Assembly: GCA_947650365.1 (NCBI GenBank) | Contig: OX393552.1 | Location: 21,691,512-21,755,511 of the forward strand | Source: Chamaelirium japonicum | Taxonomy: Eukaryota > Streptophyta > Magnoliopsida > Liliales > Melanthiaceae | DNA length: 64,000 nucleotides | Direction: 5' to 3' | Part shown: in pieces, positions 2,082 through 58,050 of the stretch | Numbering within the stretch: the first letter of the stretch is position 1 | Layout of the letters: every line of letters begins with the position of its first letter | Position numbers and translations under genes: made by a program | Notes under the pieces: model-generated | The model's input: the letters and a program-made list of their open reading frames with translations, nothing else | The model's database searches: none | What the model was told of the DNA's origin: nothing

Positions 2082-2172
<91 letters not shown>

Positions 2173-18915: not shown

Positions 18916-19057
18916 ACCTGGCCAATTTATAGGGTTGATAGTTGATATGGGCTTCAATGTGCTGATTGTTTGATCTTTCGTCTTATTTCATTCTTTCTTC
19001 TTTCTCTAATGCCACTAGACAATGTGTCTGCTCTGCTATGAAGACAATTTATTTAAT

Positions 19058-19404: not shown

Positions 19405-19414
19405 TTTATTTAAT

Positions 19415-29419: not shown

Positions 29420-32400
29420 TCAGCTCAACAAAGAGGAATTGATAGAACTGTTGGAATGATTCACTGGATGTTCATTGGTTACATCACTACTGAGAGAAGG
29501 GAATGCAGGGATAGATTTTAGAATCAATTTCCTGCCTCCCTTACGGCTAGGAGACAGCCCAATTCCATTATGTGGAGGTGAAACTCTTTTACCATTAGGG
29601 GAGGCAGTCTTCACACAATTGCTGGGTGATGCATTGCCTCTTAGAATCTCCGGAGTATCATCCTCAGGAACAATTTTGATATGCTCTCCAAATCTTGATA
29701 TGCTCTCCATATTGCTGGGTGAGATTTCAGATTTTCGAAGTGTCTGACAGGTATCCAACAGAGGAGACTTTCCAATGGGAAGCGTAAAAGATCGTGGCGG
29801 TTTTCCACTCGAGAAGAATGGGGGTTTGACAGACATTCTGGAACATAAAGTATTATAATAGATTATCATGTACAAAAAAATAAGTGAACGTAAGCTTGAG
29901 CAGAAGAAAGTATGAGGTTCTGAACCTGCAAAATTGGGCAGGTGTTGTGAATAAAACGTTTTCTGGAAAATGGCATTCGTCTTTTTCGATATCAGCATTG
30001 TTTTGTCCTTCATCGGACTCCTTCTCACAAGCATCCATTTCTTCCTCTCCAGGTTCAATTTCCTCAACTCCCATGGGCACAACACCTGTCAAAGAAAGAT
30101 AAAAAAATAAAAATAAAGCTAAACAGGATGGATATATTGCAGCATGCTAAAGACAATTTTTAGATGCATTTTTATTTTGATCAATTCCTTCATATTATTG
30201 GTAATAATGAAACCATAACTACCATGTGTTATAGTGGGTCAAAAATTGTTATGTGAAGATACAGCAAGGAAAGACCACTAAACAAATTATTTGGTTTCAT
30301 ATTATTACAAGATTCCTCTAAAGGAAGCATCATGATATCATAGGAACTATCCTAGAATCCCACATAGCAAATCTCGAAGAGAATGATACCTCATATCTTG
30401 TTTAGGTGTGGTTGGAATACTTAATTACGAAGATAAACTCAAAACCATTTGTATCCAGAAACAGGGACATAGATGGCCTTGACATAGTATTTTTTTTGGG
30501 ATTTTTTTAAAATAATATGTAAAAATTAAATATTTAAAACAATAGCATTTGGCCAAAACTATTTATCAGAGTAGCGCTCTGACTGCCCCGTCGACTGATC
30601 ACACAAGAAACTGAGTTCCACGTTGGACTTATGCATCAGCGACAAACCCGGCATCTGTGATAACGAGTTTAAAACCGGCATGAAGAAGGCCGGTTCAGTA
30701 GAAACCCACCCGCAACAAAGTGACTCTGGACTGATTTGTGCCAAGGGTGTATAAACCCGGCCTTCTGCATGCCAGTTTTAAACTTGGCATCACAGATGTC
30801 GGGTTTGTCGCTGATGCATAAGTGATTCTGGACTGATTTGTGCCAAGGGCTGTATAAACCCGGCCTTTTGCATGCTGGTTTTAAACTCGGCATCACAGAT
30901 GCCGGGTTTGTCGCTGATGCATAAGTCCGACGTGGCACTCATATGAAGAACAGTTTGAGGCAAGAAAATGGGTAGCATTTCAATTGGTAGAAGTAACTTA
31001 TCATGAATGAGATGCAGACCGATGGTGATCATATGGTAAATCAGTGTGCAGGTAATAATAGATCTGTCAATTATACATAAGTGGTAATATGGCACTCACC
31101 ATCTTTCCTTCCAAATGCATTCTTGCACCCTTCACATCTGCAGTTGCTGGAGCATCCAACTCCGCCCTTCAAACAGAAACAAGTACGTCCAAATCAGTTA
31201 ATATACAACACAGAGAACATGTAACGAAGCTAAGCCACAAAACCTGATAACACTCGCAGTATTTCTTTAAGCAACTTGACTTCTTGCAATTGCATCCCCT
31301 TTTATGACGGGCTGAAGCTGGAGTCTTATTAGCAGCTTCCTATGGGATATTAAAAGGTTGGTTCATTAATACCAAAAAGAAACGAATGTTGGCACAAGTA
31401 AATTTACGTTTCAGTTCCTACCCTCATATCTTGAACATTATCAGAGGTGTGTATTACTTTTGGAGCAAATGCAAGTGGATTGCGAGCTTCTATCTGCTTA
31501 CGAGTAGTCAGAACTGTTTCCTCATGAATTGGCTTGTTATGACACCCTTGGCATGAACATGGCTCAATGCAGTATACTCCGGCAGCAAAACATTCGCAAT
31601 AACTGCACAAGATATCAACTGGAAAACTTATGGACCAGAATAGAAATGAATAAAATTGAAAATTTTAATGCTTGGATAATTATTTAACAAAAGCAGTTTA
31701 GGCATGAAAAAGCACACCATCGATTGTAAAATTATTATTTATAATAGAATTCAAATCATAGTCCTCTGAGCTAACAATATGAAATCTTAATATGAGACAC
31801 TTCAAACTAGTTCATACACTGAATCTGCTATTGATGAATGCATATAAAAGGAACATTAAAAATTGGCTAAAAAACTGATGAAGTTGATTGCATCCAAACA
31901 AAGCTTAAAAAATAGTGCAAAATAACATTCTTTACAAGGTGACCACCCCAAGTAATACTGTTGACAGAAACAAACCAATAATGCAAAATAAGCTTAGTTA
32001 AAAAAGAAGATAGCAAACAACAGGCATAAACAGGCTTGGAATTGTTCAAAATTTATGCTAGAAAATGAAATACGTGTTTCACGAGAGCCAGTAAGCATTT
32101 ATACCTTTCTTTTCACCATCTGAAGATAAAATATTCAGCCAATAAACTCATTCCGGTTCAATGATCTCTTTGATTTACGGTAAATATTGTATTTTTGTTC
32201 AAAAATGTGAATATATGGAGTAACGAAACACTTTTGAAAACTTAGCAAGGTTTACATCCTATACTTGTAGATTCACGAAAATGGAGGTATGATTAAAGAA
32301 TCTTACAGCTTCAAGCATTTTGACTTCTTGCATTTACAGTGCTTGCATGATTCACTTTCTCTACCTTCTGTTTTAGACCTGTACACATTAGGGTCATGGT

Positions 32401-35400
32401 TTTTCAACATTACTTATTTAGCAGAAAGCCAAAGAGAAATGAAGCAACTATCAGGCACAACAAATTTCAGAACATATAGAATACCTTTTCTTCCTGGGGC
32501 TACTTTGACTTAACTCGTCGTCACTTCCAAGTTCAGGCGTCTGCGACGAATCATCATGCATAATCTGAAGATTCTGAACTTCACTACCAGTGGGTTGCAG
32601 ATCTTTCTCAACAGCCAAGGACCTATTCAGAGATTTCTGCTTAGCTGTTCTTAAAGGAAAAGGGTCAACGGAGCATGGCATGCCGATGAGCTGCCTCCGA
32701 GAAGCCAGAGTCTCTTGAGTGGCAACTCTATCTTTACTGGCTGCCGCAAGAGTATTCAAATGTAACCCAATACCAGGTAATACACAAGGTGATGGACTAA
32801 CTCCAGGCTTCAAAGAAGCCAAATGCCTATTATCAGAAGTAAATTTTCTGTTGGATGGCAAACAATCTGAAGGATGGAGGCTCGAGTCCATGAGTGAGTT
32901 CCTTTTGGAAACCCCAGATATCTCAAAAACCAAACAGCGTCTTCGGATGCCACGCTGTTTGTGAGAGTCAGCCTAAACAAACAGCAGAAAGCCACTCTTT
33001 ACACTTTAATTTCTATGTAGATAATGTCACTAACGTCAAGGAACAAAATAAGTTTTAGGGTTGAGAGGCTACATCTCTACATGATTGAACATGTTTCTTT
33101 CTAGATGCGAGTTGCATAACTGGTAGTAAACTATGTAACAATTGTCATATCATTATGTTAGTCATATAGTATCTGTGTCAGTTAGAAAAAAGGCACCATA
33201 GAAAGCAGGAAATAAAAGCATAGGAAAACAACATAAATTGGGCTAAAATTACACAAATGCAATCGAAGGCAAACTGTAAAATGGCATATAAACATTAGAT
33301 TCGTAAACTCCTATAAACTTTCAAGCAAGGCAATGTAAATCAGACTTTTCCATTTACATTGGCAAGAAAGGTCTCTATGTATAGATCTAACTACAATGAA
33401 TTCAATGTGACAAGAGGTTTCATTTCCAGCCATCCATTGTTAATGTATCAGAGTTTCTTGCCAGTATCTCAAGACAAATGGTTCCACAACCATGCCCCCT
33501 GCTGGAAATTGGATAGGAAGCATACAGATATGTAATCAAGATGAAAATATGAGAGTAGGTGACAGCTTCCAAAATACAGTACATTCACTACCACCAGCGG
33601 CATAACCCAGTGGTTGGTTGCCCTCTCCACTTGTGGGAGGGCACTTGTTCGAATCTCGTGAGTGCTATCCATAAGTCAAATTTAAAGCACCCCTCCTTTC
33701 CCAACGGGATTAGGATTTCACATAAAGAAGAAAGTACATCCATTTATATTCGACTTGGAAAAATAATTGTGTTCAATGTAAAATTAAGATCTCTTTCAAA
33801 ATTGTTAATGTATAGAGATGGGTAGGGTTACATGTACAGTCGGGTCGGGTTGTATGGTCATACATGTACATATATATTGGGCTTGAGTCCCTCAATAGAG
33901 AGCATTCTATTCCTCTCCAAACCCTAGCCGTCATCTCCTAACATGGTATCAGAGCTCTAGGGTTCTCCCATGCGGCGACGACGACGACGGTCTTCCCCCT
34001 CCGGCAGCACCTCCCCTCCGACCCCCCTTCCTCCACCCGGCCGGCCCTCCCACCCCTTCCCTCAGCCCATCCGCCCCCCTCTGGCCTCTCTCCTCCGCCC
34101 GCAAGGACCCCCCGACCCCTCCCCTCACCTCCACTCCGCCGTCCGGCCCCCCCGCACCACCCTTCCACCCGTCCGGCCTCCCTGACTCCTCCTCTGCACC
34201 CCGCCGGCCCCCCCTCCACCCTCCCCTGCACCCCCACCCCCTCCTGCACCCCCTGAAGCCCCACCGCCTCCCCTTCTCCTCTGTCCCGAACTGCCCGTCT
34301 CCTCTGTACGGACTGCCTCAAACCTTCGTTGTGCCGGCTCGCCCTCGTACTTCAGGGGTATGGCTTCCTACAGCATCTCTCGGCTCCCATACTGCCTGCA
34401 CACCGTCGCTGATCGTCGAGTCCCTCCGTCTCCTTGTTTTGATGGTATTCTCGGGCCACGTCCCTCCACCACATCAGTCGACTGTGGACATCGTCCGGGT
34501 CTCCTCCGCTATGATGGCGAGACTGCTGCTGCTGTTGATCTCCCTACTCCAGCACCGCCTGCCACCACTCCTGCTCCGTCTCGGTCTTACTCCGACCGCC
34601 TCCAGCGCTTTGAGGAGTTACTGTTGCGATACCTCGCCTCCACCAGCTCTTCGACAGATCACAGTCTCTCTGCTAATCCGGGTACTTCTGCTCGGTCTCG
34701 GTCTTACTCCGACCGCCTCCAGCGCTTTGAGGAGTTACTGCTTCGGTACCTCGCCTCCACCAGCTCTTCGACAGCTCACAGTCTCTCTGCCACTCCGGGT
34801 ACTACTGCTCCATGGATCTTCGACTCGGGTGCCTCCTGTCACCTCACCTTTGACTCCACTGTCCTCACTGACTGTTCTCCCACTACCACCCACCAGGAGG
34901 TTCGCACTGCGGATGGGACTCTCGTCCCTATTCCGCAATGTGGGTCCGTCACTATTACCTCTGACCCTTCTGGTCGCCTGACCCTACCCCATGTCCATCA
35001 TGCCCCCCGTCTTAACATTAATCTGATCTCTATCAGTTCTCTTTGCGACTCTGGCCTGACTGTCACTTTCACCCCTTCTGTTTGTGTTGTGCAGGATTCG
35101 CGGACGGGTCAGAGGATTGGGCTAGGCCGTAGAGCAGGAGGACTTTACCAGCTGGACCATCTACATGTGTCTTCCGTTCATGTTGCGTCTGTCATGTCTG
35201 TTACCTCTGATGCCGACCTGTGGCACAGAAGGTTAGGTCATATATCGAGTGATCGACTCAAAAGCGTATTCCGTTCGGACGCTTTGGGTCGAGCGTCCTT
35301 CTCCCCTCTCTCTGTTTGTACGGGTTGTAGACTGGCAAAGCATCAAGCTCTTCCATTCTCTGCTAGTGCTTCCCAATCTGATGCTTTATTTGATTTAGTA

Positions 35401-38400
35401 CATTCGGACATTTGGGATCCTGCACTTGTTGCATCCATTTCGGGTTACATGTACTATGTGTGTTTTATCGATGACTACTCTAGGTGCACCTAGGTTTATC
35501 TTATGCATCATCGGTCTGAAGTCCCTCACATCTTTAGGAGATTCACCACTATGATACACACTCAGTTTGGTCGGCGCATCAAGACCTTTCGGTCTGATTG
35601 TACCAAGGAGTATCTCTCCTCTGAGATGCGTGAGATTCTTCAATCTCACGGCACTCTTCACCAGCAGTCCTGTCCCCACACCCATGAGCAGAACGGCGTT
35701 GCCGAACGCAAGCATCGTCATGTCCTTGAGACCGCACGAGCCTTGCTTCTCTCTGCGTCTGTTCCTCACTCTTACTGGGCTGAAGCTGTCATGACGGCTG
35801 TCCACCTCCGTCATCTGCTCTGTCTGGTGTCACCCCATATGAGCGCCTCCACTCCAGCCCACCTGACTACTCTCTTCTTCGCACGTTTGGCTGCACGTGC
35901 TTCGTTCTTCTTCCTCTCCATGAGCGCACCAAACTCTCTGCGAGGTCTGTTAGGTGTGTTCACTTGGGACTCAGTCGAGAGCACAAAGGATATCGTTGTT
36001 ACGATCCCTTGGCTCGCCGGATCCGTGTCTCCCGTCACGTTTCCTTTGTTGAGGATGTCCCGTACTTTTTCCCTGAGTCTCGGGATCTTTCCTTGCCTCC
36101 TGCGTCACCCTCCTCGCCTTCATCACCTCTCCACATCCCCGTTCTACCCCCGTTTTCTGTTGCCCCACCCACGCCTACTCCATCTCCATCTTCCCCGCCA
36201 CCACCACCTCCTCCGTCTCCCTCGCCGCCTCCACCACCACCTGTTACTCGTGTCTATGTTCGTCGGTCTGCAGCTCCTCCTCCAGAGTCGGTTCACACTG
36301 GTACTCCCTCGCCTGATACTGCTGCCCCCTCCTCCCTGGTCGTGGATCCTGCTCCTGTTCGGCGCTACCCAGCGCACGAACATCACCCTCCTGACAGATA
36401 TGACTACTCTTCGGACAGGTTTTGCTACTCTGCCTTTACCTCTGACTCTCCTGACTCCTCTGGCTACTCTGCCATTGCATCCTATTCTCCAGCTTATCAG
36501 GCTTTTCTTACCGCACTTCACACCCACCGGGAGCCCCAGTCGTACCGTGAGGCAGCTTTACACCCAGAGTGGCGATAGGCCATGTCAGTAGAGCTTGAGG
36601 CTTTTCAGCGGACCCAGACATGGGATTTGGTGCCTTGTCCCTCAGGCGTGGTGCCTGTTAGCTGCAAGTGGATCTTCAAGGTCAAGACTCGTCCTGACGG
36701 ATCCATTGAGCGGCACAAGGCCCGCCTCGTTGCTCGTGGCTTCTCCCAGGAGTATGGGATTGATTACGAGGAGACGTTTGCTCCGGTTGCTCGGATGACT
36801 ACTGTGCGCACCCACTTAGCTGTGGCAGCTGCTCGAGGGTGGCCTCTCCATCAGATGGATGTCACCAATGCATTCCTCCACGGTGACCTCTCCGAGGAAG
36901 TCTACATGGCTCCTCCTCCGGGCGTTTCAGTTCCTCCAGGGCACGTGTGTCGTTTGCGCCGAGCCATCTATGGGCTCAAGCAGGCCCCTCGTGCCTAGTT
37001 TGAGCGCTTCCGCAGTGCAGTCCTGGCCGCCGGGTTTGTTGAGCGTCACTCCGACTATGCCCTGTTCACTCGCTCCTCCAGTCAGGGTATTGCAGTTCTT
37101 CTTCTCTATGTGGATGATATGATCATCACCGGGGATGACAGTGCCACCATAGCATCTGTGTGTACCCTTCAGGTGGGCCGCGCAATAAGTGGCAAAGAAG
37201 GGGAAGAGTCGGCATGTCGTTAGAGAGGAGCAGCAACCCCCCCCCCCCTCCTTGGGCTCGGTCGGCCGGTCATCAAAAAGGGGGGGGACAACAGCCCCCC
37301 CCCTCTTCTTGGGTTCGGTCGGCCGGTCATCAAAAGGGGGGGACAACAGCCCCCCCCCCTCTTCTTGGGTTCGGTCGGCCGGTCACCAGAGGGGGGGCAA
37401 CAGCCCCCCCCCCCCCCCATTGTTTCGGTCGGCATGTCACCAGAGGGGGCCAGCAGCCCCCGCCATTACTTCGGTCGGCATGTCACCAGAGGGGGCCAGC
37501 AGCCCCCCCCCCCCCCCCTCTCTCTCTCTCATTAGGACGTGCAACGAGCCGAGGTGTGAAGCAGTAGTCGAACTCGGAGATCTCGGAGTGCTGACTACGC
37601 TCCGAGATTTCCGGCCCAAGGTGACCAGGCGCCAATCGCGCGCCACGTCCTCACTACAGCGGCGGTTGAGCTCATTGCGGGGACACATTACCCACCCGTT
37701 TTTCGCGGAGCGTCGTAACCGTCACCCCGCCACTATAAAAAGGGACCTACCCCTTCAAGGAAGAGAGGAAGAATTCTAGAGGAGACGCTGCCCGTTTCGT
37801 CCCGGAATTTACGGAGCGCCGGAGCTGCGGAGGTCGGTCGGTCGATAGCCAGAGACTGTCTGCGGAGGTCGGTCAGCAGTCAGATACTGTCTGCAGCTAC
37901 CGGTAGTCAGATACTGTCTGCAGCGACCGGTAGTCAGACGCTGTTTGCAGAGGTCGATAATTCGGGAGACCGGTCCTCAGGGTGTAATTGGGGTAAGGTG
38001 AGAGAATTGTAACCGTCGCAAGTATTATAGTGCATTCTCGCCCCACCCGTGGTTTTTTCCCCTTCGACGCTGCGAAGGGGTTTTTCCACGTAATTCCCAG
38101 TCTTCATCTTATTTTTGGCTTGTTGGATTGTGCTTGCCACCCGAACCGCCCGGTTCGACTAACCCCCCACAATCTTGGCGTCGTCTGTGGGATAGTCTTC
38201 GAGACTTCCTACTAAAGCTTTCGACTGTTGACCCGTGGGTGTCGACCAGTCCGAGGCTACCTGCAACCAGCAATCCACGATCACACGGTTGAAGAAAGAT
38301 GGCCGGTGGACCGTATCGTACCCGCTCGACATCGCAGCTCCCGTCCGAAGCCGCACCACTCGGAGATGCTAATGACGTCGGGCGTCTTGTTCAACCATCA

Positions 38401-41400
38401 GCGGACATGGAGCGCACAGTCCCACTGGTGAATCCCATACTGGGGGTCGGGGACTCCAGTCAAGCTCCGGTAGCAACCCTGGCTCCACTAACAGGGGGTC
38501 TGTCGGAAGCTTTTCTGGCCACAATGATGATGACCCAGCAAGCTCTTACCACCCAGCTCCAAACGATGCAGTGCAACTACGAGGAGTTGCGTGACTTCGT
38601 GCGGGCCGCACCGACGGGTGGTCTACTCAATCAGGGCATGTTGGCCCAAGCGGGACAGAGCCTCCCCACTCAAGCTGCCCCACCAGTACAAATGCAGCCG
38701 CAACCAGTGCCTCAGGTGGAGGTCAAGGTTAATCGCTCAGTGGAGGTCCAAAGTGCGAATCCCGACGGGCGAGACTCGAGTAGCCCGGAGCCTGCGGAAA
38801 GAAACAAACACGCCCGAGCTGTGTCGGCACGCTCGGATGTCTGGTCCCGGCTCGGAGCACACCCCCGACAGCCGCCTGCCTCCAAGCATCATTCGAAGAC
38901 GGACTCGGCACAAGTGCATCGCCCGAAGCGAGACGAAGAACATCATCGTCAACCGAGTGATAGTCATCACACTCGGATGACGCCAGCCAGTCGGCAGCCG
39001 GCTCATACTACTGATCGGAGGAGCGTACACGAACGCATTCGGGTACATGCGTCGGAGCGACTCGGGGATCGAGAGGAGATCCAGCGAGACCGACCGGGGG
39101 TCCGAGCTCCCGACCGGTTGGAGGAAGTTGCCATCCAAGGAGCCGCACGGTCGCCGCTTGTCGAGAAGCTACTCCGGGAGCCATTCCCTCGAGGATGGAA
39201 TCCTCCACGCCTTCCCAAGTTTGACGGATCGAAAGACCCGGTGGAGCATGTACTGGCTTTCCGGGATACTCTGGTCCCGCACGAGGATGATCATATTCTC
39301 TGCCGGACCTTCGCCAACAGCTTGTCGGGAACGCCCCTCGAATGGTTCCACAAGCTCAGGCCCTCATCCATCTCCTCATTCTCGGAGCTGAGCACGCGGT
39401 TCATCGACCAGTACCGATGCAACCGCCGGGAGCTGAAGACTCTAGAGTCACTCTTCGGGATGAGTATGACCCAAAAGGAGACGCTCAGACAATTCTACCA
39501 TAGGTTCAAGTCCGAATACCTGAGATTGGTGGATGCAGACGGGCAGGATCGCATGGTGATCGCGGCCTTCAAGAACGTCATTCAGCCTACCCAGCTCGTC
39601 AACGCGTCGCTCATCAAGCGAACCCCAAAGACGATCGACGAGCTGTCGCGACGCGTTGAGAAGTACATCAAGATCGAAGACGCGGACCGCAAGAGGAAGG
39701 CGGTGGAAACCAGGGTCCCGCACCAGGGCTACGCCAAGCCAGCTGCCGTGAAGAACGTCAACAAGCAACAGGGGGAGGCGACGCGGCACGACGCGAAGCG
39801 GCAGAGGCAAGACAGGCCAGCGAGGTCACAGTGGAACAGGGAGTTCACAGTACTGAACGCCCCCATAGACCAGATCCTGGAAGCTATCAAGGGCGAACCG
39901 TACTTCAAGTGGGCGCAACCGTTTGAACCCGGAGAGAGGGGAGCCAGAGATGCATCAAGGTACTGCGAGTACCACCAGAGCCAAGGCCACACTACCCTGC
40001 AGTGCCGGGCACTCAAGCATCATATTGAGGATCTCATTGAGGCCGGCCACCTTGGCTGCTTCATTGACATCCCTCAACGTAAGGAGACCAAGGCTGTAGG
40101 GGAAGTCCAGCGAGGAGCGACGGCACCGCGTTTACCGGGTCCTCCGCTAGAAAGACGTCAGCTCCGAGAGGTAGACGCAATCTACGGGTACCATGGCCCT
40201 GTACCATCATCAAATGCCGTCGACCGACAGGTGCGGCGTATTGAACAAGCAAGGCAAGTCCACCATGTGGTGCTCGACCCCGTCATTCGCCCCGAGCCAA
40301 GAGTGGAAGCAGCAGTACAGTTTTCGGCGGCTGATCTGGTTGGAATAGAGAGGCCTCACAACCATCCTCTGGTCATACGGCTGCAGATAGCGAATTGCCT
40401 GGTGAAGAGGATTCTGGTCGACGCCGGGAGTTCAGTAGACGTGCTCTTCCTCAGCGCCTTCGACGCCATGCAGCTAGATCGCGGGCATATGACTGAGTCG
40501 TCGTCGACGATAACGGGCTTCACGGGAGAGGCTGCAAGGGTGGTTGGTGAGATCACCCTCCTGATCACAACAGGGCATCTGACCAATCTTACCCGGTTCA
40601 TTGTGATTGAAGCTCACTCGGCGTACAACATCATCCTTGGAAGGCCGTGGCTCCACCACTTGGATGCGGTCCCCTCGTCGGCCCACCAAGTAGTGAAGTT
40701 TTGGACCGACAAGGGCGTGATGAGCATTCGAGGAGACCAGTCTTCGACGGCCAAGTGCGAGCTAAGCGCAATTCATCTGAAAACAACGTGCCAAATTGAG
40801 GGAGGAGAACCAGGTGAAGGCGGCACTGAGTTGGGCATCCTCAACCTCTGGACTGCGAAGCGGAGTCAAGAAGCTCCAATGTTCCAGCACCTCGCCTGAT
40901 CGAGCGTAGGAGCGCGAGGAAGCCAAGTCCTTTGGAAGACCGACCTGTCAGCTGAACTTAAAGAGCTGACAGTGATGGGGGACTTGCTGAAGACCGACCT
41001 GTCAGCTGAACGTAAAGAGCTGACAGTGTCGGGGGACCTGCTGAAGACCGACATGTCAGCTGAACGTAAAGAGCTGACAGTGTCGGGGGACCTACCGAAG
41101 ACCGACCATTCAGTTGAACATAAAGAACTGACTGCGTCGAGGAACTTGAAGAAGGCCGGTCAGTTAGCTGAACTTAAAGAGCTAACTGGTCCGAGCAACC
41201 CGATGGAGACTGACCTGCCAGCTGAAGGTAAAGAGCTGAACAGGATGACACACCCTCAGAAGACCGACCGACCGGTTGAATCTAAAGAACCGGACGAGTC
41301 GAAGAGCCCGAACACGGAGTGGGAGGAGTCACCCGCCGTCGAGCCAATTCTGCCCGTGGACTTAGGAGAAGCGGGTCATCCGAGGATAACTTTTCTCGGG

Positions 41401-44400
41401 TCGCAGCTGCCGAAGCATCATGCCGAAGCTATGACAGCATTTCTCAAGGCAAACCTGGATGTGTTCGCATGGTCAGTTGAAGACATGCCAGGCATCCACC
41501 CCGAGGTAGCCTATCACCACCTCAACATTCGAGAAGGAGCTGCACCTGTACGCCAGAAGCCCCGGTCGCTAGCGCCGAAAAAAACAGCAGCTGTCAACAT
41601 GGAGGTAGAAAAACTGCTACGAGCGGGCATCATCAGAGAGGCTCGGTACCCGAAGTGGATCGCTAACGTGGTCGTCGTCCCCAAGAAGTCCGGAGCCATA
41701 CGGGTCTGCATCGATTTCATAAATCTCAACCAAGCATGCCCAAAGGACAGCTACCCGCTACCGCGCATCGATACCCTGGTGGATTCCACGGCGGGACACG
41801 AGAGGCTGTCGTTCATGGACGGGTACTCGGGCTATCACCAGATCCCCATGAATCCAGAGGACCAGGAGCACACGACCTTCGTCACGGGTCGAGGGCTCTA
41901 CTGCTACAAAATGATGTCATTCGGGCTGAAGAACGCGGGGGCGACGTACCAAAGGCTGGTGAACAAGATGTTCGTCGACCAAATCGGAAGGAACGTGGAG
42001 GTCTACGTCGACGACTTACTTGTGAAGAGCCAGGCGGAGGAGACGCATATGCGAGACCTGGAAGAAACCTTCGTAACCCTGCGGAGGTACAGCATGAAGT
42101 TGAACCCGGCCAAGTGCGCCTTCGGCGTGACGTCGGGAAAATTTTTGGGTTACTTGGTCACCCGACGGGGGATCGAGGCCAACCCGGAGCAGATCCGAGC
42201 TTTGGAGGCGATGTCGTCGCCCAGGTCACGAAAGGAAGTCCAGAAGCTGACCGGACAGATCAACGCCCTCAACTGCTTCATATCCAAGTCTTCAGACCGG
42301 TGTCGGCCCCTGTTCGAGAGGCTGAGTAAGCTTGCACCTTTCGACTGGAACCAACGTTGTGAAGAAGCATTTCAGGAGCTGAAGACGTATCTTGGCCGAC
42401 CCCCTATCTTGACAGCCCCCCAGCCAGGTGCAACGTTGGGGGTGTATCTTTCGGTATCGAAGGCAGCAATCAGCGCTGTACTGATATGCGAATGTGAAGG
42501 AACGGAGAGGCCCGTCTACTACGTCAGCCGCATCATGACGTCAGCGGAAACAAGGTATGCGTGGATCGAGCAAGTGACCCTAGCTCTAGTGTACGTGCCA
42601 AGGAGACTTCGCCCGTACTTCGTCGCTCACCCCATCAAGGTCATCACCGAGCACCCCCTGAAGGAAGTACTGGATAACTCTACTCGGGCAGGTCGGCTGA
42701 GCAAGTGGGCTGCAGAACTGCAAGAGTTTGGCCCTCGGTACGTACCTCGGAAAGCAATCAAGGGCCAAGCACTTGCAGACTTCCTCAGCGATTTCCCGGC
42801 GGAAGACACTGCACCGGTGCCAGAGACGTTAGAAGACCTGTCGGTGGCTGCCGATCGACCCGTGGGAGTCGGTGCGGCAGCATGACAGGAGGACGAAGGA
42901 AAAGGCTGGAGATTGTTCGTGGATGGCTCGTCATGCGCAGTCGGGAGTGGTGTGGGGGTAGTCCTAGTAACCCCCGACCACACGAAGCTCGAAAAATCAG
43001 TGCGGCTACTTTTCCCGACGACGAACAACGAAGCGGAGTACGAGGCGATGCTGACAGGACTGGAGATGGCGACAGCGCTGGGGGTGACCAGTCTACAGGT
43101 CTACGGCGACTCCCAACTGGTAATCAATCAGATTACCGGTAGGTACGAAGCCCGCGACGCAAGAATGCAAGCTTACCTGAAGCTAGCCCGGGAGTTGATC
43201 GCCAAGTTCGAAGACATAAGCTTTCACCAGTTCCCCAGAACGGAAAACAAGCAGACGGATGCCCTTGCTAATCTAGCATCGGTACTCGGAGAAGACAGAG
43301 AGAAAAGGGTCTTCATCGAGGTGCAAGCTGACCCCCGAACAGTCGGCCCCGCAGAAGATAGTTGCCTGACGAGGAGGACAAAAGCCATTGAGGCAGCCCA
43401 TACTATTGCGGTCGGAGCTGATTGGGTAAGCAACATGAAGAAGTACCTACTTGATGGGATACTACCGGAGGACGTCGATGATGCCCGAAGAACCAAGGCG
43501 CACGCTCCAAGATACACCCTCATCGACGACGAGCTGTACAAGCGTTCGTTTGGCGGACCGTACCTCAAGTGCCTCACGAAGGAACAAGCGGCAGAAATCA
43601 TGAAGGAGGTACATGAAGGGGTATGTGGGAACCATTCCGGAGGAAGAGCCCTGGCACGGAAGATAAAGCTGCAGGGCTACTACTGGCCCACCATGGAAGC
43701 AGATGCGGGGGGATATGTGAAAAGGTGCTTGCAATGTCAAAAGCATGCTCCCTCCATACATCAACCAGCAGAAGAGCTGCACCCAGTATCCAGCCCTTGG
43801 CTCTTCCAACAGTGGGGGTTGGATATTTTGGGCCCCTTCCCGACGTCGCCCAACCGGAGGAAGTTTCTCCTCGTCGCCACCGACTACTTCACCAAGTGAG
43901 TGGAGGCAATCCCGTTGCTGAAGATCGGGGAAGTTCAAGTAGGAAAGTTCCTATGGAGCAACATCATCTGTCGATTCGGACTGCCGCGGGCTTTTGTTGC
44001 AGACAACGGGCGACAATTCGACACGGAGTCAATCAAGAAGTTCTGCGCCAGTAACAACATCAAGCTATTTTTCTCTACACCGCGGTACCCTCAGAGCAAC
44101 GGGCAAGCGGAGTCGACGAATCGCGCTATTCTGGACATACTGAAGAAGAAGCTAGAGCAAAAGAAGGGTTTGTGGGAAGAGGCTCTACCCGGAGTTCTAT
44201 GGGCCTATCGGACGACACCGAAGCGACCGACGGGAGAGTCCCCGTTCAGCCTTACCTATGGCTCCGAAGCAGTCCTGCCAACGGAAACCCTGGTCCCAAC
44301 ACAGCGAACAGTCGTAGCTGCCGACCCAGAGCGGAACGACGAACTCCTGCTGGATGGCCTAGACCTGCTGGAAGAGAAGAGGGAGAGAGCGAGAGAGCGC

Positions 44401-47400
44401 CTAGCCAATTATCATCAGGCCATCAAAAGGGCGTATGACCGCAAAGTCAGAAGGCGGGTATTCAAACAAGGGGACCTGGTCATGCGGAAGGTCTTCGACA
44501 ATACCAAGGAGTTGGGAAGTGGCAAGCTGGGAGCTACCTGGGAAGTACCATACATCATCGATGGTATGGGAAAGAATGGAGCCTACCGCCTGAAGACTCA
44601 AGACGGCGATGCAATAGCAAGGCCATGGAATGCCACCAATCTGCGCAAGTTCTACCAGGGTAGCTAAATGGGCGAAACGCTTGTAACCGTTCTGTAGTTC
44701 TGGATCTATTCAATAAAGATGCATTTGCTCAACGTTCTTGTTCATGCGTGAGAATAATGGTTAACTAAGGCAACATAAACCAAGTGGTATATAACACTCC
44801 GAGCGAGTTCTACCACTTGGCCGACCGGTCGACAGGTCCCTGCGAAGGGCATGACCGGCCGGTGAACACCTGGGAAGATCGGTCGACAGACCCCGCCGGG
44901 GTACAACCGGTCGACCAACCTAAACCAAGTGGTACGTAACACTCCGAGCGAGTTCTACCACTTGGCCGACCGGTCGACAGGACCCTGCGAAGGGCGAAAC
45001 CGGCCGGTGAACACCTAGGAAGATCGATCGACAGACCCCGCCGGGGTACGACCGATCGACCAACGCAAACAAGGAAGGGTATATCACCCCCCGCTGATAT
45101 AAGAGCCAGATATTGGTCGCACGTCGTCGACGTGTAATCAGAGTACGAAGGTCAAATTTTGATTGCACGTCGTCGACGTGCAGTTATGCATGTCGTCGAC
45201 GTGTAGTCAAAACATGGAGGCCAAATTTCAATGATACGTCGTCGACGTGTACTTAAGATGCAAAATCGACAAGAGAAAGACGACAATCATAGCATTCAGA
45301 TTAATCGAATTAAAGGGTCCCAATACAAACGAGCGTGCTGTTTCATTACATCACAAAATAAGACATAAGTGGGAGTGGTCAGTCATCTTTCCCAGCTTTC
45401 CACGGCCCCGGCGGGAGCTTGCTGCGCAGCTTCGTAACCTTCTTACGCCACCCCGCCGCCTGTTCTTCAAGGTACAACTTGCACTCTATGGAGAAGTCCG
45501 CATGCTGCTGAGCAAGCGCAGCCTTATGCGATGCTTCAGCCTGGTCGATAGTGGACTTCAACACGGTGATTTCGGCTTCGTAAGCCGCCTTGGTGGCCTC
45601 GGCATCCATTCGCTGCCTCCTGATCACTGAGGCCTGGTCCCTGAACCGATCCCACAGCCCGTCGATTTCTGCCTGAGCGGTATCCAGTGCCTCTTGCAAC
45701 TCGAAGGGGTCAGCAGCGTTCGCCTGCGCGACTTCGAGCTGAGCCTGGACTGCAGCTAATTCCTCAGCATGGACACGTCGTGCCTCCGCTAACTGAGTGC
45801 GGGTCTCCGCTAACCGAGTGCGGGTCTCCCTCAAGTCCTGCCGAGCAGTCTGCAGGGAGGCCTCGAGTTGCGCCATCCTTCGAGCGCCCCTCTCGGCGAC
45901 ATGGCCGGCAATCGTAGCCACGCGACCGCTCATCTGACAAAAGTGGAAGAGGTGAACCAAAGAATCAGGAGTGGAAACTACTGCAGCAATCAAGCCTACA
46001 ACGACTCGAAGACTTACCTCATGAAGGTCGCCGAGCTGGCTCCGCCAGCTGGAACTGTCCACCCCAGTATCCTCTTCCTCCACCTGACAAGCAGAGAGCC
46101 TAGGGGAGCGACGGTGAGAGGTAGCTTCGGTAACTCCGGGGGGAGAACTGGGAGGCGGCACGGCGACGCCCCCTGAAGCAGAGGAGGAAGGTGAAGCCAT
46201 GAAGCATCGAACATCCTCACGTGCGAATAGTGGAGCAGATGGTGCAGCAGGGGGTGCAGCAGGTGGTACAACGGTAGGGGCAGCAGGGGGATCGCGGGGT
46301 GAAGCGCGCCCACGCGACCCCGCAGAGCCAGACGGCATGGGTTGCTTGCCCCGACCAAGAGAGGGAGAGAAACTGTAACTGGAAGACCTCTCGGAGTCTT
46401 CTATCTCCACGTAATGTCTACCCGTCGACGGCACGTCTTCTGACCAGTCGTTGGGGAGGAAACGAAGATCGTCGCAAGCAGCACGTCGCATAGCGGGAGC
46501 GAGAGGAGAGCGGCCTTCATCGTCGTCGCTAGAGGACTCATTTAGAAGGACGCGTCTCTTTGCCTTCCCTGCGGTTGCAGCTACTTTGCGTGCAGCTGGT
46601 TGCCTGCAACCGCCAACAGCCGCAGTCGACTTAGCGCGGCGCCTGAAGACCACGCAAAGTTTAGAGGCGGCAGTATTTGGGTTGAAGCGTCTGACGGAGC
46701 TAACGTACCTGTCAGGAAGCTCAGAAGAGCAAGCAGAGGGCTCTTCTTCCCTACCCGTCGCCGCAGGCTGTTTGCCCTTCTTTGGAGTGGTACTGTAAGA
46801 CCTAACGACCGGTAGCTTCGGAAACAGCTTCCGCCAGTCGTCGTCGTTGTTCGTCACCCTCCTAATAAGTTGGTCCAACTCCTCCTCAACAGACCCAGGG
46901 CACTGAAGCTGCCTAGATGGGTAGAATTCCTCGACGGTCGCAGCGAGGAGGGAGACGGATCCAGGGATTTTGAAGCGACCCCTTCAGGGTCCTCCGACCA
47001 CGATGGGGCACTCCCTCCAACCCCTTACCGAGTCAGCTAAGCCCCCGATGGGAGGGCGACTGCCCGCGCGTGCCTGCAGGCTAAAATAGGAAAAGACGCT
47101 GCCTGGCGTCATCTTGTAGTCCTTAATGAAATAATTCTTCAGGAGGTACGCGACGCAGAGCTGCTGCCCCGCCCGTTCTTCTATCGCTTCCATGCAACGA
47201 AGAATCCTCCAGCCGTTGCCGGCTATCTGGCCTGGAGACACTTTCATGTACTCCAGCAGGCGACCAGAAAAACTTGCAAGGGGAAGCCGCAGGCCGCAGC
47301 GTAGCTTGCCGAGCGTGACGACAGTACGGTCGCCGTCTGACGGGTCCAAAGGACCAGTAGCAAAGGAAAGTGAGATCGTATCCGGAATGCCGTAAGCCGC

Positions 47401-50400
47401 CCGGACCTCCTCCATCAGAGGGAACTTCTTCGTCACGGAGAACCAGGAGAAAGGCATCTTCGACGACGACTCTCGGCGTGTATCCAAACGCAACTCCTGC
47501 GAACACGCTACTCCTCCGCGTGTATCCAAAGGAAGCTACGTGCAGCGTGTTATCAACCCAAACGAATTCTCAGCCGCAGAGGAGAAATCTGAAGCAGAGG
47601 AAAGAAATGAACCTTTGGGGTCCTATTTATAGAGAAAGTTGGAGCTGTAGGGGTTGGTTCAGATTTCGAGAAAAATAGGCGGCGAGGTGGCGACGCCTGG
47701 TGACGCCATGTGGCGAAAAGCCGGGAAAAGCCCAAACAGTTACTTGGAGTCCCTACAGCACCGGAACTAAGCTGGCACGCAAACCGAGGCGGGCAAGCAA
47801 ACCAAGACGGGCACACGCACGTCGACACGGGCGCGCAAACTGAGACGAGCACCCACGTCGACACGGGCGCGCAAATCGAGATGAGCACGCACGTCGTGGT
47901 GGGCGCGCAAACCGAGGTGGGTACGCAAATCGAGGCGGGCGCGCAAGCTGAGACTTGCACGAGAATTGAGGCTGACACGCAAATCGAGACAAAGTAATCC
48001 TGACCGGGCGGGACTAAAGACCGTCCGGTCAGGAAGGGGTATTGTGTGTACCCTTCAGGTGGGCCGCGCAATAAGTGGCAAAGAAGGGGAGGAGTCGGCA
48101 TGTCGTCAGAGAGGAGCAGCAGCCCCCCCTCCTTGGGCTCGGTCGGCCGGTCATCAAAAAGGGGGGGGACAACAGCCCCCCCCCTCTTCTTGGGTTCGGT
48201 CGGTCGGTCATCAAAAGGGGGGGACAACAGCCCCCCCCTCTTCTTGGGTTCGATCGGCCGGTCATCAAAAAGGGGGGGACAACAGCCCCCCCTCTCTTCT
48301 TGGGTTCGGTTGGCCGGTCACCAGAGGGGGGCAGCAGCCCCCCCCCTATTGTTTCGGTCGGCATGTCACCAGAGGGGGCCAGCAACCCCCCCCCCCCCAT
48401 TACTTCGGTCGGCATGTCACCAGAGGGGGCCAGCAGCCCCCCCTCTCTCTCTCTCTCGTTAGGACGTGCAACGAGCCAAGGTGTGAAGCAGCAGTCGAAC
48501 CCGGAGATCTCGGAGTGCTGACTACGCTCCGAGATTTCCGGCCCAAGGTGATCAGGCGTCAATCGCGCGCCACGTCCTCACTACAGCGGCGGTTGAGCTC
48601 ATTGCGGGGACACGTCACCCACCCGTTTTTCGCGGAGCGTCGTAACCGTCACCCCGCCACTATAAAAAGGGACCTACCCCTTCAAGGAAGAGAGGAAGAA
48701 TTCTAGAGGAGACGCTGCCCGTTTCGTCCCGGAATTTGCGGAGTTGCGGAGGTCGGTCGGTCGGTAGCCAGAGACTGTCTGCGGAGGTCGGTCGGTAGTC
48801 AGATACTGTCTGCAGCTACCAGTAGTCAGATACTGTCTGCAGCGACCGGTAGTCAGACGCTGTTTGCAGAGGTCGATAATTCGGGAGACCGGTCCTCAGG
48901 GTGTAATTGGGGTAAGGTGAGAGAATTGTAACCGTCGCAAGTATTATAGTGCATTCTCGCCCCACCCGTGGTTTTTTCCCCTTCGACGTTGCGAAGGGAT
49001 TTTTCCACGTAATTCCCAGTCTTCATCTTGTTTTTGGCTTGTTGGATTGTGCTTGCCACCCGAACAGCCCGGTTCGACTAAGAACCCCCCACAGCATCCC
49101 TTCAGCGTCACCTCCAGAGTCAGTTTGAGATGAAAGATCTGGGCTCTCTTCGCTACTTTCTGGGCCTCGAGATTGCCCGGTCAGCTCGTGGTCTGTTGGT
49201 CTCCCAGCAAAAGTACATCTCAGACATCTTTGTTGATGCTGCTCTTACTGACTCTCGTACTGCTGACACACCCATGGAACTCAATTTGAAGCTTCTAGCT
49301 ACAGATGGTGAGCCGCTCCAGGATGTCTCCCGCTACCAGAGGCTGGTTGAGATGCTCGTCTACCTCACTATGACCCGGCCAGACATTGCCCATGCTGTTG
49401 GCATTGTCCATCAGTTTGTTCAGGCTCCACGTTCAGTTCACTATGCAGCTGTCCTTCGGATTATCCGCTACCTCCGAGGCACCGTCACCCGTTCACTACT
49501 GTTTCCCTCCACCTCTCCGTTGGTGCTGCGTGCCTACTCCGATGCAGATTGGGCAGGAGATATAGCCACTCGCCGCTCTACTACAGGATACTATGTGTTT
49601 CTTGGTGATTCACTTATTTCGTGGCGCAGCAAGAAACAGGAGTCTGTTGATCGCTCCAGCACCGAAGCCGAATACAGGGCTATGTCTTCCACCACCGCAG
49701 AGATTGTCTAGCTTCGCCGCCTTCTGCTTGACTTGGGAGTTGTGATATCCGGGCCCACGCATCTTTTCTGTGACAACCGGAGTGCTATTCAGATTGCTAG
49801 CAACCCGGTCTTCCACGAGCGAACAAAACATATTGAGGTTGATTGTCATTATGTTCGCCAGGAGTTTCTCGACCACACCATCTCCTTGCCATTCATTCCA
49901 TCATCGGAGCAGACTGCTGATTTTCTGACGAAGCCCCTTATGATTGCTCGTTTCCGGCACTTTATCGGCAAACTCTCGGTTCATGATCCACCGTGAGTTT
50001 GAGGGGGAGTGTTAATGTATAGAGATGGGTCGGGTTACATGTACAGTCGGGTCGGGTTGTATGGTCATACATGTACATATATATTGGGCTTGAGTCCCTC
50101 AATAGAGAGCATTCTATTCCTCTCCAAAGCCTAGCCGTCATCTCCTAACAAAAATCATTCTATGCTCTTTAACATCATCAGTCCAAAACAACTTAACGCA
50201 TAACGGTAGCCGCACCTAGCCACCCAACCCCCTCCCCCCACACCCCATCCCTACCAAGGTTGAGTGAGGAACAAGTTATCATATAAGAAAGATTGAATTT
50301 ATTTCTTATATTGGGATAGTAGAAGATGGAACATGGAGGGCCTCGGAGTCCATAATTTGCATCGATTCCGGCTTGATGTTATGGTCAAGCAGCTTTTTGA

Positions 50401-53400
50401 TATGCTCAATAATATTTCTAGCCTTTGGAGGGCTTTCTGTTTTGACAAGTATGGGTTTTTTGTTCCCTTATGGGATTGACCTCAGCCCAAGCATTCTTCT
50501 TCCCGGATTTGCAGGTCTTAAGGAGGTCTGGCGTCAAGCTTCTTTTAATCATTGGCATGTTGCTTTGGCTAATCTCATATTATTTGCCTATTTACCTCTC
50601 ATCTATAATTTTGAGCTAGTTGCATGTTTGGCTCTATCTCGGAGGTAATGTTTGTGGATGGTCGTTGGAATGAGGCCCTTATTCATGCTCTTTTTCCATC
50701 CTTTTGATGTGGAGTTATTCTATCCACTTCTATCTTATCTACGCCGTTGTTATATTATTTAATTTGGGTTTCCACTAGTAAATCTACAATTTCACGAAGG
50801 TTCTATGGAAAGTCGATGCTTCCCCTCATGCACAAAGCTTTAGTTGAAACTTTATCATGAAAAAAATCCCCACTAAGGAACTTATTAGATTTCATCTATT
50901 GTTGCTGATTTGCCTACAATACCAACATTACTTGAGCCTGTGAGTTTGATAAACAACAGTTTGAGTCTGTGATGACTTTCATTCATCCTTGTGATAATTT
51001 GGGACTTCTAAATTGATTATCGGCATTCCTATCCTAGTGGAAGTCCATACTTACAAACAATCACTTGAATCTTGCATTGCTTGCCGCAATTAGGCCTATG
51101 ATACTCCACATTTGTTGATCGTTAGCACTCTGAATAACTTAAGTTAATTCCAAATACCTATACTTTAAATTTCTAGTTGTTAATTTGCTCTCATCTCTTC
51201 TGCATCATATGCAAGACATACTTGTATTGATACTGCATCAATGCGAAGCACATATGGTTTTGTACATGTGGTATAATGGTATTATCTAAGTCGAAGCCAA
51301 CTACAAAATTTAAGGGAAAGACGCAAAGACGTGAATGAAAACTGATGCATAAAAATCAGGTTTGTTGTACCTTATAGCCGAATGAAACACAATCACTTGT
51401 TCCATTGCCCATATTCTGACTTTGATTACTCATTACCACCTGTCTCTGAGAGACTCCTGCAACTATTTGTGGGGTATGATCAGTTTCATTTTGCTCACCA
51501 ATCTCTCCACTGTGTGTAACATGAGGATCCTGCGTGCTATTTTGAAGGCAAGGGCCAAAAGAATCATCAGTTTGTGTTTTCTGTGAATCATCAACAAATT
51601 TCTCTGTAAGATTCAATGAAAAAGAGGTAAGAGAATTTGCATCTTTGCCTCGCAATTTTTCATTCTGATCCTCGCAAGCCTCTGACTCAGTGGAGTCATC
51701 GAATACTAACAGATCATCAGTGTCATCAGAAATTAAATTCTCCCAGTCACACCCTGGCACTTCTTCCTTAATTTGCTCAGTCAGATGGTGTTCCTGCACA
51801 GCCTCAGCTGCAAACAAACGTTTTCTTTTGTCCAGACCATCTTGAACAAACTGAATTACTTCTACATGTGTGCAACCTATATCCAGTTTGGGATCCAGTT
51901 TGGCTCCAAAGCAACGTCTAACACTATGGTTCGGCCTACCACAGTCATACTGCGCTGAGTGGGGTAGATTACAAGGTAAAGTTGAACATTCATCAGGACG
52001 GTCGACGTTAAATGAGCATTTTGTATTGCAATTTTCTTGTGCAACCACAATGCAGCTGGACAGTTTGACAGCATTTGAAACACCTGCGCATAAGTTGCTT
52101 TCATCCCCATTCTCCAAAGAGTTCTCTTGCTTTGCTGAGTCTGAATACGGATGCCTGATAGTGCGAAAGATAGAGAAGTACATAATCAAGATTATCATTT
52201 AAAACTAGCACCAGCAAGTTATAGAAAAGATGCATAAGGATTTGTGGTTACCTTGTCAAAAATCTAGATTCCTTTTGAAGATTGACATGTGGAGAAGAAA
52301 AGACAGAAGAAATAGATGTGAAACCGGGCGAAGTATACGCTTGTACACTATGCAGTGATTTAACAGGCTGGATAGGAGACAAGCTATTGATGAAGCTGAA
52401 GAGTGGAGAATCCTGTAATGAATAACAAAACGTTAATAAGCCATCCCTTTTATACCAACTGTATACCCATCAACTCTTGGGGCCATAGCATGAGCCATAG
52501 ATGAGATTAATCTTTTCATATGCAGCTGAATGAAAGAAAGACTGAAGATGGGGCAAGAGTGGGCTTCTCTGAACCGTGGAGCGGCGATTCTAACCCCTCC
52601 TGAACCTGGTGGACCAGGGTCAGGAAATCCAGCGACCGCAGCAGTGAATGAACACCAAGAGGGTGCCTCCTACCTTGACGCCGTCCGCCAATCAGGTCAA
52701 TCATCTTCTACTATTTCCAAGGATTCCTTGATCGTCTTCGACTCTTACAAATAGTCAACTTGGAAATTATTGCTTTTCAGTGCTTCAGCATGAAGACCTT
52801 TCTAATGGGAAAGGTATGGAGGCTGAGGATTCGGCTGCTCCCACGTGCACTACTCGAGACCCCTCCGACTCTTCACCTTTTACTTTACCACCTCATAGTC
52901 ATGATGTTGATAAGTGATAATTCCCAGCCTACTCTGATGTTTGATGCTTCAATGAAGGTGGACATGGAATTACACAATACACCTCTGTTGTCGTCTTTGG
53001 CGATGGATGGGGCCCCTCCTGGCTTTCCTGTTCCAAAGTTACATGATAACCACCCCCATGCTTTGGCAGTCTCCCAAACCTCACATCTTCCTTCTCCATC
53101 AACCAGAGGCTAATGTCACTCCGGAGTTGAAGTCAGGGGATTCAGAGGACGAAGATAATAAGGGGAGATTCGGGGGAAGTAATCCTCATTACTACTAGAC
53201 GTTCCATAACTTTTGGCATATTTGGCCGGAATCCGGATTGTCGTGGGTTGTGTTGGATAGCTGGAAACCGGGTTGTGACAAGGTGACAAACCTCATTTAC
53301 AATGGAATAAGTCTACAGTGGGTAATATTCATCAACTTGCTAATCACTTGATGGATTCCATCTCTCAGCAAGAAGAAGTGGAAAGTTGAATTGCATATCC

Positions 53401-55502: not shown

Positions 55503-55529
55503 GGCCTCGGAACGCCCCAGAGCTCTCCC

Positions 55530-55534
<5 letters not shown>

Positions 55535-55605
<71 letters not shown>
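55535..55605 (-). repeat. GA microsatellite in the TSO1-like 5' leader
   Basis: Plus-strand CT run of 71 bp (GA on the gene's strand), ending 33 bases upstream of the ATG at 55502. GA-rich leaders can be bound by plant BPC (GAGA-binding) proteins; that is family knowledge, with no direct evidence here. It generates spurious Ser-Leu or Arg-Glu open frames. Confidence 0.9.
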
Positions 55606-55608
<3 letters not shown>

Positions 55609-55759
55609 CCACTGCTTCTCTCTCTCTCTAGGTCCACTGCTGGATTTGAAGAAGGGTGGCCGATGGGCGGGAAGCGATTTCTTTTCTACTGTTCTCATCA
55701 TCCCCTTCCCCACCGGTGCTTTTGTTTCTTTACATCGACTCATCGGTTAATAAAATGAA

Positions 55760-56222
55760 GGGTAAATTACACTTTGACTCAATATAGTTTAAAAAATACA
55801 TTTTGCCCCCTCCCCCCGCCCCCCCCTCATTTCAGTTCTGAATCTTCTGATCAAATAAAAATCGAATACTTAAAATAATCACCCAAAACACGGAGTCATC
55901 ATGGTTTGGGGTCAGCTATTAACATATGTTCCCACTCATTTGATCACCTGACCCTTATGATGGAGTCCCCTGGGGTTCTTCCGGAGGCCTGTAGATCTCA
56001 ACAAGCCAAAATCGTCAACTGAGACGGAATTAGCCACGATAATACTGTGGTTTGGAACGACTAAGTTAAGGGCTTTATGATAAAAATTACCAAATAAGGA
56101 AATTAAGTAATTAAGTCATTTTACTAACATTTCAACTTTAGGGTGTGATTTGGAAAAAAAATAAGCTAAGGGGGGTGAAGTGTTTTTTAGCTAAGCTCAG
56201 GGGGCAAAGTATAATTTACTCA
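55760..56222. mobile_element. MITE-like element, possibly Mutator-type
   Basis: Inverted ends GGGTAAATTACACTTTG (left) and, on the complement of the right end, GAGTAAATTATACTTTG. Flanks taaaatgaa (55751-55759) and aaaaatgaa (56223-56231) match at 8 of 9. Inside, a second unit (about 55880-56085) containing cctgtagatctcaa and ttaagggcttt resembles 56715-56955, so one element may have inserted into another. Confidence 0.5.
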
Positions 56223-57450
56223 AAAAATGAAAAGATAGAGAGTATAAAGCGTTCACATGGCAGGTGTGATAAAAAAAGAGGAAAAGGAGAAAGACAGCCT
56301 CTCATGCCTCCAAAGCGGTTGGTAAACGGAGTTCAATGCATTTTTTTTGTTATTTACTTGTCCCGATTGACTGATAAAGTCAGCCCACGTAGCCACGTAG
56401 GACTGCAACTTGGGAATGATGAACTCGATCCAACCCGAGCCCAACTCGAGTTTGGATCAGGCTGGGCTTATAAATTAAAAGAACGGGTTGGAAAAGTTAA
56501 ACCCGAACTGAATTCGGGTTGGGTTAGAGCAGAGGAGTCGCGCAACCGGAGTTCGTAACCTATACCTTAGCCAAGGGATGCCGAACAATCTTTTGGTTGC
56601 TCCTTGTTGTCCTCTACCCAAGAGCATTTTTGCTGCCCGGATGATGTGCAGCACTCTTACAGCCCGATTGGGTTGTGCCATGTCGACCATTAAAAAGAAT
56701 ATAACAGATAAATTTTATTGGAAAGATTTAAAATAGTCATTCCGAACTATGGAATTATTATAGTTCAGGATCCAGCTAACGACACTTGTCCCCTCACGTT
56801 CGATTACCCGTTCCTTATGATGGGAGCTCCCTAGGATTCTCTCGGTAGCCTGTAGATCTCAATAATCTGGAACCGTTCAATGGATCGGAATAACAAGTGT
56901 CGATGGCCGGACACCGAACCATGGTGATACCGTGGTTCAAGACGACTATGTTAAGGGCTTTAAATTTTATTGGGTTAATGTGTGAGAGGTCCCTAACAAC
57001 AGATACATCCTATGAACAGGATATCTTAAAATTTCATTTAGCCTAAGATCCCTGTCTTTTTTGATAAATCTGAAACTACCCTCTAGTTTCTTCTCCCATC
57101 TGTCCCTAGCAGCTCCAGCGGTGACGGCTAGAGCAGAGGCGGTGGGGGTAGCGGCCAACACTCCGACGACAGTGGCGAGCAGCTCCGGCGACGGTGGTGT
57201 TTGGTTCGAGGTTTGGTTGAGGACCCTAAGTCTAGGGTTCATCCCATAGCCTGTAGATCTTAGGGTTAGGGTTAGGTTAGGTTCGGCGGCGAGTAGCTCC
57301 AATGGCGACATTCGGTGTTTGGTTTGATGGCGATGAGCAACTCCGGTTCGGGTTCACTAATTCAGTGGCATGGAAAAAGAAAATTTGAATTACTGTGAAG
57401 GACATTTTCATCCACAGCATTTCAAAGTCCTTAGGCTAAACCGATCTCTT
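56223..57450. repeat. Intergenic with a second copy of the tgtagatctcaa unit
   Basis: At 56715-56955 a unit with ends tttaaaatagtc and, inverted, gactatgttaagggctttaaa contains ccttatgatggga, agcctgtagatctcaa and accatggtgataccgtggtt. The same words occur in order at about 55880-56085. A cccaaccc/gggttggg block lies at 56428-56527. The 57.06-57.32 kb part is GC-rich without a recognised protein. Confidence 0.4.
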
Positions 57451-58050
57451 TATTAGGGATAGCTCACTAAGTCCCCCAATTTTTTTTTCACCCCAAAAAT
57501 GATGAACATATCCCATTTTTTTTCTTCTATTTTTGTGTGGGGTATGACTAGTATGTCCCCGACTCTCCAACACATCCCATCCTCTTTTAACCTCCATACC
57601 CCATCTCCTTCATCAGTTATGGCATAGCCTCGCTGGCCGTTGCCTCCACCGCCCACTTCCGATGCCACTGCCTCTTCTCTTCCTATCCCCTCCTCCTTCC
57701 CCACCACCTCTCCTCCTCCAGGGGGAGGAGGATAAGGGGGGAAGGGGAGGCACCGACGTCGGAGATTGGTGCTAGAGGCGTTGATGTCAAAGATGATGCC
57801 GGAGGGGCTGGCGTCGGAGGCTTCGAGTTACAGGGGTATGCCGTGACAGACGTGCAAGCATGGAGGTAACGGGGTATGGAGGTTCAAATGGGATGAGGTA
57901 TGGAGGGGGAAAAGGATGTGGTGTGCTGGAAAGAAAGAATGGGGTATAGGATAAGGTAGTGGGGGGATTATTGTCATTAAAAATTGGGTAATGGTTGTCC
58001 ATTGGAAGCGGGGTATGTTTATCATTTTTTATTGTGAACAAAATTTCTGT
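57451..58050. repeat. Foldback-like unit with GGGG-rich centre
   Basis: atgatgaacatatccc near 57499 is complementary to gggtatgtttatcat near 58012, and several inner phrases (ccataccccat / atggggtat) also pair. The centre is rich in gagg/cctcc. No target duplication was defined. Confidence 0.35.

Follow-up and report, generated by a model that had tools for sequence, protein, structure and literature searches.

Introns swollen by transposable elements (TEs) are common in plants. A survey of grapevine reported 2,697 introns of 3-100 kb holding 591 complete long terminal repeat (LTR) retrotransposons, with copia outnumbering gypsy and no bias in gene function (PMC3058033), and introns of up to 1.49 Mb have been described in Wollemia (PMC10473749). 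In rice, 4,227 of 37,866 gene models (about 11%) have heterochromatic introns, and many of these genes, some of them regulated by OsIBM2, are transcribed (PMC7145194). The EDM2-dependent Arabidopsis gene RPP7 holds a copia element, COPIA-R7, in the first intron of an otherwise intact gene, and its transcripts end at the 5' LTR of that element (PMC7529245). Here we describe a further example from Chamaelirium japonicum, a TSO1-like gene whose third intron contains a Ty3 retrotransposon nested within a copia retrotransposon, both lying in a 64,000-nucleotide stretch that we call the window (assembly GCA_947650365.1, contig OX393552.1, positions 21,691,512 to 21,755,511 of the forward strand; all coordinates below are those of the window). 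LTR retrotransposons fill the intron as they do in grapevine, although the abstract and the first part of the Results of that survey describe no two-layer nest (PMC3058033). As in the rice genes, a long TE-laden intron lies near the 5' end of a normal gene, but the rice cases rest on measured methylation, H3K9me2 and transcripts (PMC7145194), whereas the TSO1-like gene is known from sequence alone. Like RPP7, it is an intact gene that carries an intronic copia element; unlike RPP7, it has two elements, both antisense, nested and in intron 3 (PMC7529245). The term 'nested insertion' was unused among the matches listed in a literature search on introns and IBM2, and a search for nested LTR elements in large introns matched three papers; such limited searches are no proof of absence.

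We consider it probable, with good confidence, that the locus is a normal TSO1/SOL-like gene, transcribed through an intron that grew from about 2 kb to 18.4 kb when two LTR retrotransposons inserted in succession. The gene runs on the minus strand from 55502 to 29420, and its ten exons encode a product of 826 residues with a single terminal stop. The original prediction had proposed ten in-phase exons, and an exon-by-exon rebuild reproduced them: all nine introns (9/9) are GT-AG, the phases are consistent throughout, and the 826-residue reading frame holds no internal stop. Exon 1 (55449-55502, start codon at 55502) is an ATG frame that ends in GAG followed by the donor gtgatt; it is a provisional choice, picked by eye among the ATG frames of 52413-60500 for its phase-0 donor. 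Its start appears to resemble TSO1 N-termini, and the choice leans partly on this likeness. It is followed by exon 2 (52252-52412) and exon 3 (51371-52154), which ends at protein residue 333. Intron 3 (32973-51370, 18,398 bp) is bounded by AAG followed by the donor gtacaaca after 51371 and by the acceptor ctgctgtttgtttag before 32972, in phase 0, so that the 18.4-kb intron proposed earlier proved exact at both boundaries. The other eight introns measure 77 to 3,036 bp. Beyond the nest come exon 4 (32485-32972), exon 5 (32307-32378), in which the first CXC repeat begins, exon 6 (31422-31602) with the remainder of that repeat and the hinge, exon 7 (31244-31339) with the second CXC repeat, exon 8 (31100-31166), in which that repeat ends, exon 9 (29926-30085) and exon 10 (29420-29837), which includes the stop codon. 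Exon 4 likewise appears to resemble TSO1, as does the N-terminal part; a literature search on six RRRCL-type motifs returned no papers. Ten exons lie within the range seen in Phoebe, where CPP genes have 4 to 11 (PMC11902078).

The placement of the product in the CXC-hinge-CXC (TSO1/LIN54) family is clear from its domains. Two stretches match the Tesmin/TSO1-like CXC domain (Pfam TCR, PF03638; E 8.6e-22), each repeat holds nine cysteines (9 + 9), and the two repeats with their hinge align to human LIN54 (5fd3, E 9.1e-23); these matches uphold the TSO1-like identity first proposed from the sequence. In LIN54, Tyr536 and Tyr610 enter the minor groove of the DNA (PMC4974476), and both aligned residues of the product are tyrosines; by the numbering of the construct, the tyrosines of CLKLYC and CLKNYC would correspond to Tyr536 and Tyr610. 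Neither LxCxE (L.C.E) nor an ALM motif was found in the 826 residues. LxCxE within an ALM motif marks TCX5/6/7 (type II CPP) and, in TCX5/6, provides the tie to RBR1 (PMC8500230), and on this criterion we ruled out a type II, TCX5/6/7-like identity. The Arabidopsis type I proteins TSO1, SOL1 and SOL2 likewise combine two CXC repeats and a hinge with the lack of LxCxE (PMC3207858, PMC8500230). Because the LxCxE motif of the DREAM subunits TCX5/6 is absent, the product looks, by elimination, like a TSO1/SOL-type member. TSO1 and MYB3R1 act in cell division. The label 'cell-cycle regulator' that had been given to the gene is a loose one: the LxCxE that links TCX5/6 to RBR1 is missing. TSO1, SOL1 and SOL2, which have no such motif either, were positive with MYB3R3 in yeast but were absent from the proteins recovered in the DREAM pull-downs of the same study (PMC8500230).

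The outer layer of the nest is a copia element (33803-50150) on the plus strand, antisense to the gene, and its presence in intron 3, as originally claimed, follows from an LTR pair, a target-site duplication and a primer site. The LTRs (33803-33943 and 50010-50150) are 141 bp long and identical at 139 of 141 positions, and the duplication AAAAT flanks them on the left (33798-33802) and right (50151-50155). Together with the primer site TGGTATCAGAGC and a purine-rich stretch, both judged by eye, the element thus has the paired LTRs, 5-bp duplication, primer site and polypurine tract of an LTR retrotransposon. Its coding parts match the GAG-pre-integrase, Pol_BBD, SH3 and RVT_2 domains, with rve under its Pfam cut-off, and the left frame holds one internal stop. 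No Pfam gag match was found in the two frames scanned between the primer site and the protease region, and gag may have been lost from the element before it inserted. The region at 33944-34810 shows only a C-rich, partly duplicated stretch. Removing the nest and one copy of the duplication leaves an intron of 2,045 bp (18,398 - 16,348 - 5), in line with the 'about 2 kb' estimated earlier for the empty state. The host part of the intron also contains a short interspersed element (SINE)-like stretch on the plus strand (33590-33760) with motifs resembling tRNA-like A and B boxes; ARAGORN found no tRNA in the window.

The original prediction further held that the copia element itself contains a Tat element. 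The inner insertion (37157-49093, plus strand, 11,937 bp) is a Ty3 element with LTRs at 37157-38171 and 48043-49093, flanked by the duplication GCATC (37152-37156 and 49094-49098), and it lies in the copia reverse-transcriptase (RT) gene. When 150 bases from each side were joined over a single copy of GCATC, one copia RT frame stayed open across the join. That two 5-bp duplications at paired LTR ends and a continuous RT frame should arise by chance is very unlikely. The inner gag-pol frame (38293-44667, plus strand, three in-frame stops) gives domain matches in the order gag, RT, RNase H (RT_RNaseH), RVT_3 and integrase zinc domain, with rve below the Pfam cut-off; with RVT_3, which we take to be the archaeal-type RNase H, the first RNase H is followed by a second, archaeal-type one. 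Such a dual RNase H is a feature of the Tat clade (PMC5348765), and the duplication, the restored RT frame and the two RNase H domains bear out the earlier claim. Between pol and the 3' LTR, a frame antisense to the element and co-oriented with the host gene (45379-47535, minus strand, one internal stop) matches TRP28/PF04195 with E 1.6e-5 and 25.5 bits, just under the cut-off of 26.2. Retand elements are described as having a pol-3' LTR region of 2.9-6.6 kb with antisense TRP28 frames, and tandem repeats in about half of them (PMC11963269). The inner element resembles them in the length of this region (about 3.4 kb), its tandem repeats and, more tentatively, its antisense TRP28-like frame, and departs from the type in that its PF04195 match falls below the cut-off and its frames are broken. 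Its features, as read from the domain matches and the layout of this region, fit the Retand lineage of the Tat clade. Neither element looks able to move, because the copia element is split and its left frame carries a stop, and the inner gag-pol holds three stops.

These boundaries bear directly on whether the intron could be a misassembly, in which unrelated gene halves were joined through repeats. Intron 3 is indeed mostly repeat and comes from a single assembly, but matching 5-bp duplications bound each layer, the copia frame is continuous over the inner site, the two sets of exons share a strand and keep a common phase, and the window has no gaps and not a single N; we regard misassembly as a most improbable explanation. 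What we take the assembled sequence to establish is that two insertions occurred, in which order they did so, that each lies antisense to the gene, and that exons and splice sites are intact. The copia element would first have inserted in intron 3, and the Retand-like Ty3 element would then have inserted into the copia RT gene. Between the two inner LTRs, 30 of 993 aligned columns differ (K 0.031), compared with 2 of 141 for the outer pair (K 0.014). The inner pair thus looks the more diverged, against the age order, but the contrast is non-significant (Fisher p 0.42) and so does not contradict the required order, outer first. With a rate of 1.3e-8 per site per year, as is often applied, 0.031 corresponds to about 1.2 million years, or to a greater age in a slow-evolving tree.

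Orientation bears on how the gene might be expressed across this nest. Each element reads along the plus strand, opposite to the minus-strand gene, and the polyadenylation signals in the LTRs should therefore not be met in the sense in which the gene is read. Every exon and splice site has also been left undamaged. Because no exon or splice site was hit and the element signals should point the wrong way, transcription would pass through the nest and intron 3 would be spliced out as a whole. A promoter within the nest, for example one serving an antisense unit in the Retand-like element, could instead drive exons 4-10 as a second transcription unit. The antisense frame at 45379-47535 does lie on the strand of the gene, and such frames characterize the Retand lineage (PMC11963269), but this one is broken by a stop, no evidence points to a promoter, for which no search was made, and nothing would keep exons 1-3 in phase with exon 4 in the long term. 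Two separate units are, in our judgement, highly improbable.

Several observations weigh against a normal gene read through a methylated nest. In a neutral simulation of the 2,481-bp coding sequence, with 0.75% and 1.55% change per lineage, two transition biases and substitutions only, 31, 47, 56 and 69% of runs remained stop-free. Exon intactness as proof of selection was therefore rejected as weak: the intact exons fit selection without proving present function, because neutral runs often stay stop-free. Intron 3 has two AATAAA hexamers on its gene-sense strand, of which one falls in the left portion of the copia element and the other in host sequence at 50151-51370, although such a count is a weak guide given how loose plant polyadenylation signals are. 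The methylation footprint is similarly fragile. The inner LTR differences comprise 28 transitions and 2 transversions, an excess that suggests methylation decay but is a hint at most, and CHG sites are over-represented among the changes (12 of 28, vs 121 of 572 unchanged C/G sites; one-sided p 0.0099), with sequence contexts that were chosen after the data were seen. On stricter columns the CHG excess shrinks, to p 0.045 with gap-near columns removed and to p 0.14 beyond the minisatellite. A control was provided by a terminal-repeat retrotransposon in miniature (TRIM)-like element in intron 1 (54028-54431, 404 bp, plus strand, antisense to the gene), which has LTRs of 108 and 107 bp (54028-54135 and 54325-54431), the target-site duplication CATGC and the primer site TGGTATTAGAGC. 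Its LTRs differ at 13 of 107 columns, by 12 transitions and 1 transversion, so the pattern is not specific to the nest; none of its transitions falls at CHG, but only three unchanged CHG sites are available for comparison. Nor is CpG depleted in the inner element, where observed/expected is 0.92 against 0.76 for the window (0.72 for the copia parts together). Given that the TRIM control behaves alike and that stricter columns weaken the CHG signal, we keep the footprint as no more than a hint.

Some of the same observations favour a recently crippled copy, in which most transcripts end in the nest and the exons are intact because the time has been short. Intron 3 falls at the 333/334 residue boundary, with the N-terminal part ahead of the nest and, after it, residues 334-826, which include both CXC repeats, and read-through from exon 3 into the intron adds five residues before a stop. 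A transcript ending in intron 3 would therefore encode residues 1-333 plus five, and no DNA-binding part. The LTR identities of both layers indicate young insertions, stop-free neutral runs are frequent and the two sense-direction hexamers are present; premature polyadenylation in TE introns is, moreover, documented (PMC7145194). Against this stands the undamaged state of all exons and splice sites, and we hold a crippled copy to be unlikely. A normal gene, transcribed through its enlarged intron, is the reading that we retain.

Whether such transcription would need IBM2/EDM2-type factors, of which the gene had been proposed as a natural client, is a separate matter. The nest is probably DNA-methylated. 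In rice, about half of TE-containing introns (980 of 1,967) did not overlap heterochromatic introns, and among 454 genes commonly affected in OsIBM2 mutants, 93 had heterochromatic introns. This share, about 2% of the 4,227, may according to the authors be an underestimate owing to the tissue and to partial alleles (PMC7145194). With 93 affected genes vs 4,227, a heterochromatic intron alone does not make a gene an IBM2 client. Orientation alone decides nothing either, because intragenic TEs in rice are reported to have no strong orientation bias (PMC7145194) and an antisense ONSEN in the 3' untranslated region of GER5 is still IBM2/EDM2-dependent (PMC10241880). On prior knowledge, client status is possible and not the default, and that the TSO1-like transcript needs IBM2/EDM2 to pass the nest seems to us rather doubtful, if a real chance. 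The mechanism of the original prediction is a plausible proposal, and the phenomenon an ordinary one.

Other features of the window include a self-complementary stretch in intron 8 (30612-30941) with a 103-bp tandem duplication, resembling a foldback or miniature inverted-repeat transposable element, and a minisatellite (27771-28825), in which a 65-bp unit is repeated about 16 times, some 600 bp past the stop codon of the gene. A further self-complementary stretch lies at 19044-19417 (75% over 385 columns). On the minus strand at 2054-4042, a 662-residue frame carries a KIP1-like domain (PF07765, E 5.3e-25), and it overlaps and adjoins long GA repeats.

A bolder possibility is that the nest acts as a heterochromatin-sensing switch, by analogy with IBM1 intron 7. 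A methylated nest would then yield the full TSO1-like protein, while with a fall in methylation transcripts would stop inside the nest, leaving an N-terminal fragment of about 338 residues that lacks the DNA-binding half. We think this very unlikely; if it were true, cell division could be coupled to methylation state, given that TCX5/6 belong to this family and that complexes with these proteins repress DNA-methylation genes (PMC8500230). By itself the locus leaves existing knowledge unchanged. It is a clean, datable case of a plant gene tolerating large insertions, in two layers that are both antisense, and the split between N-terminal and DNA-binding parts at intron 3 would make it a convenient locus at which to test whether nested intronic TEs alter transcript completeness.

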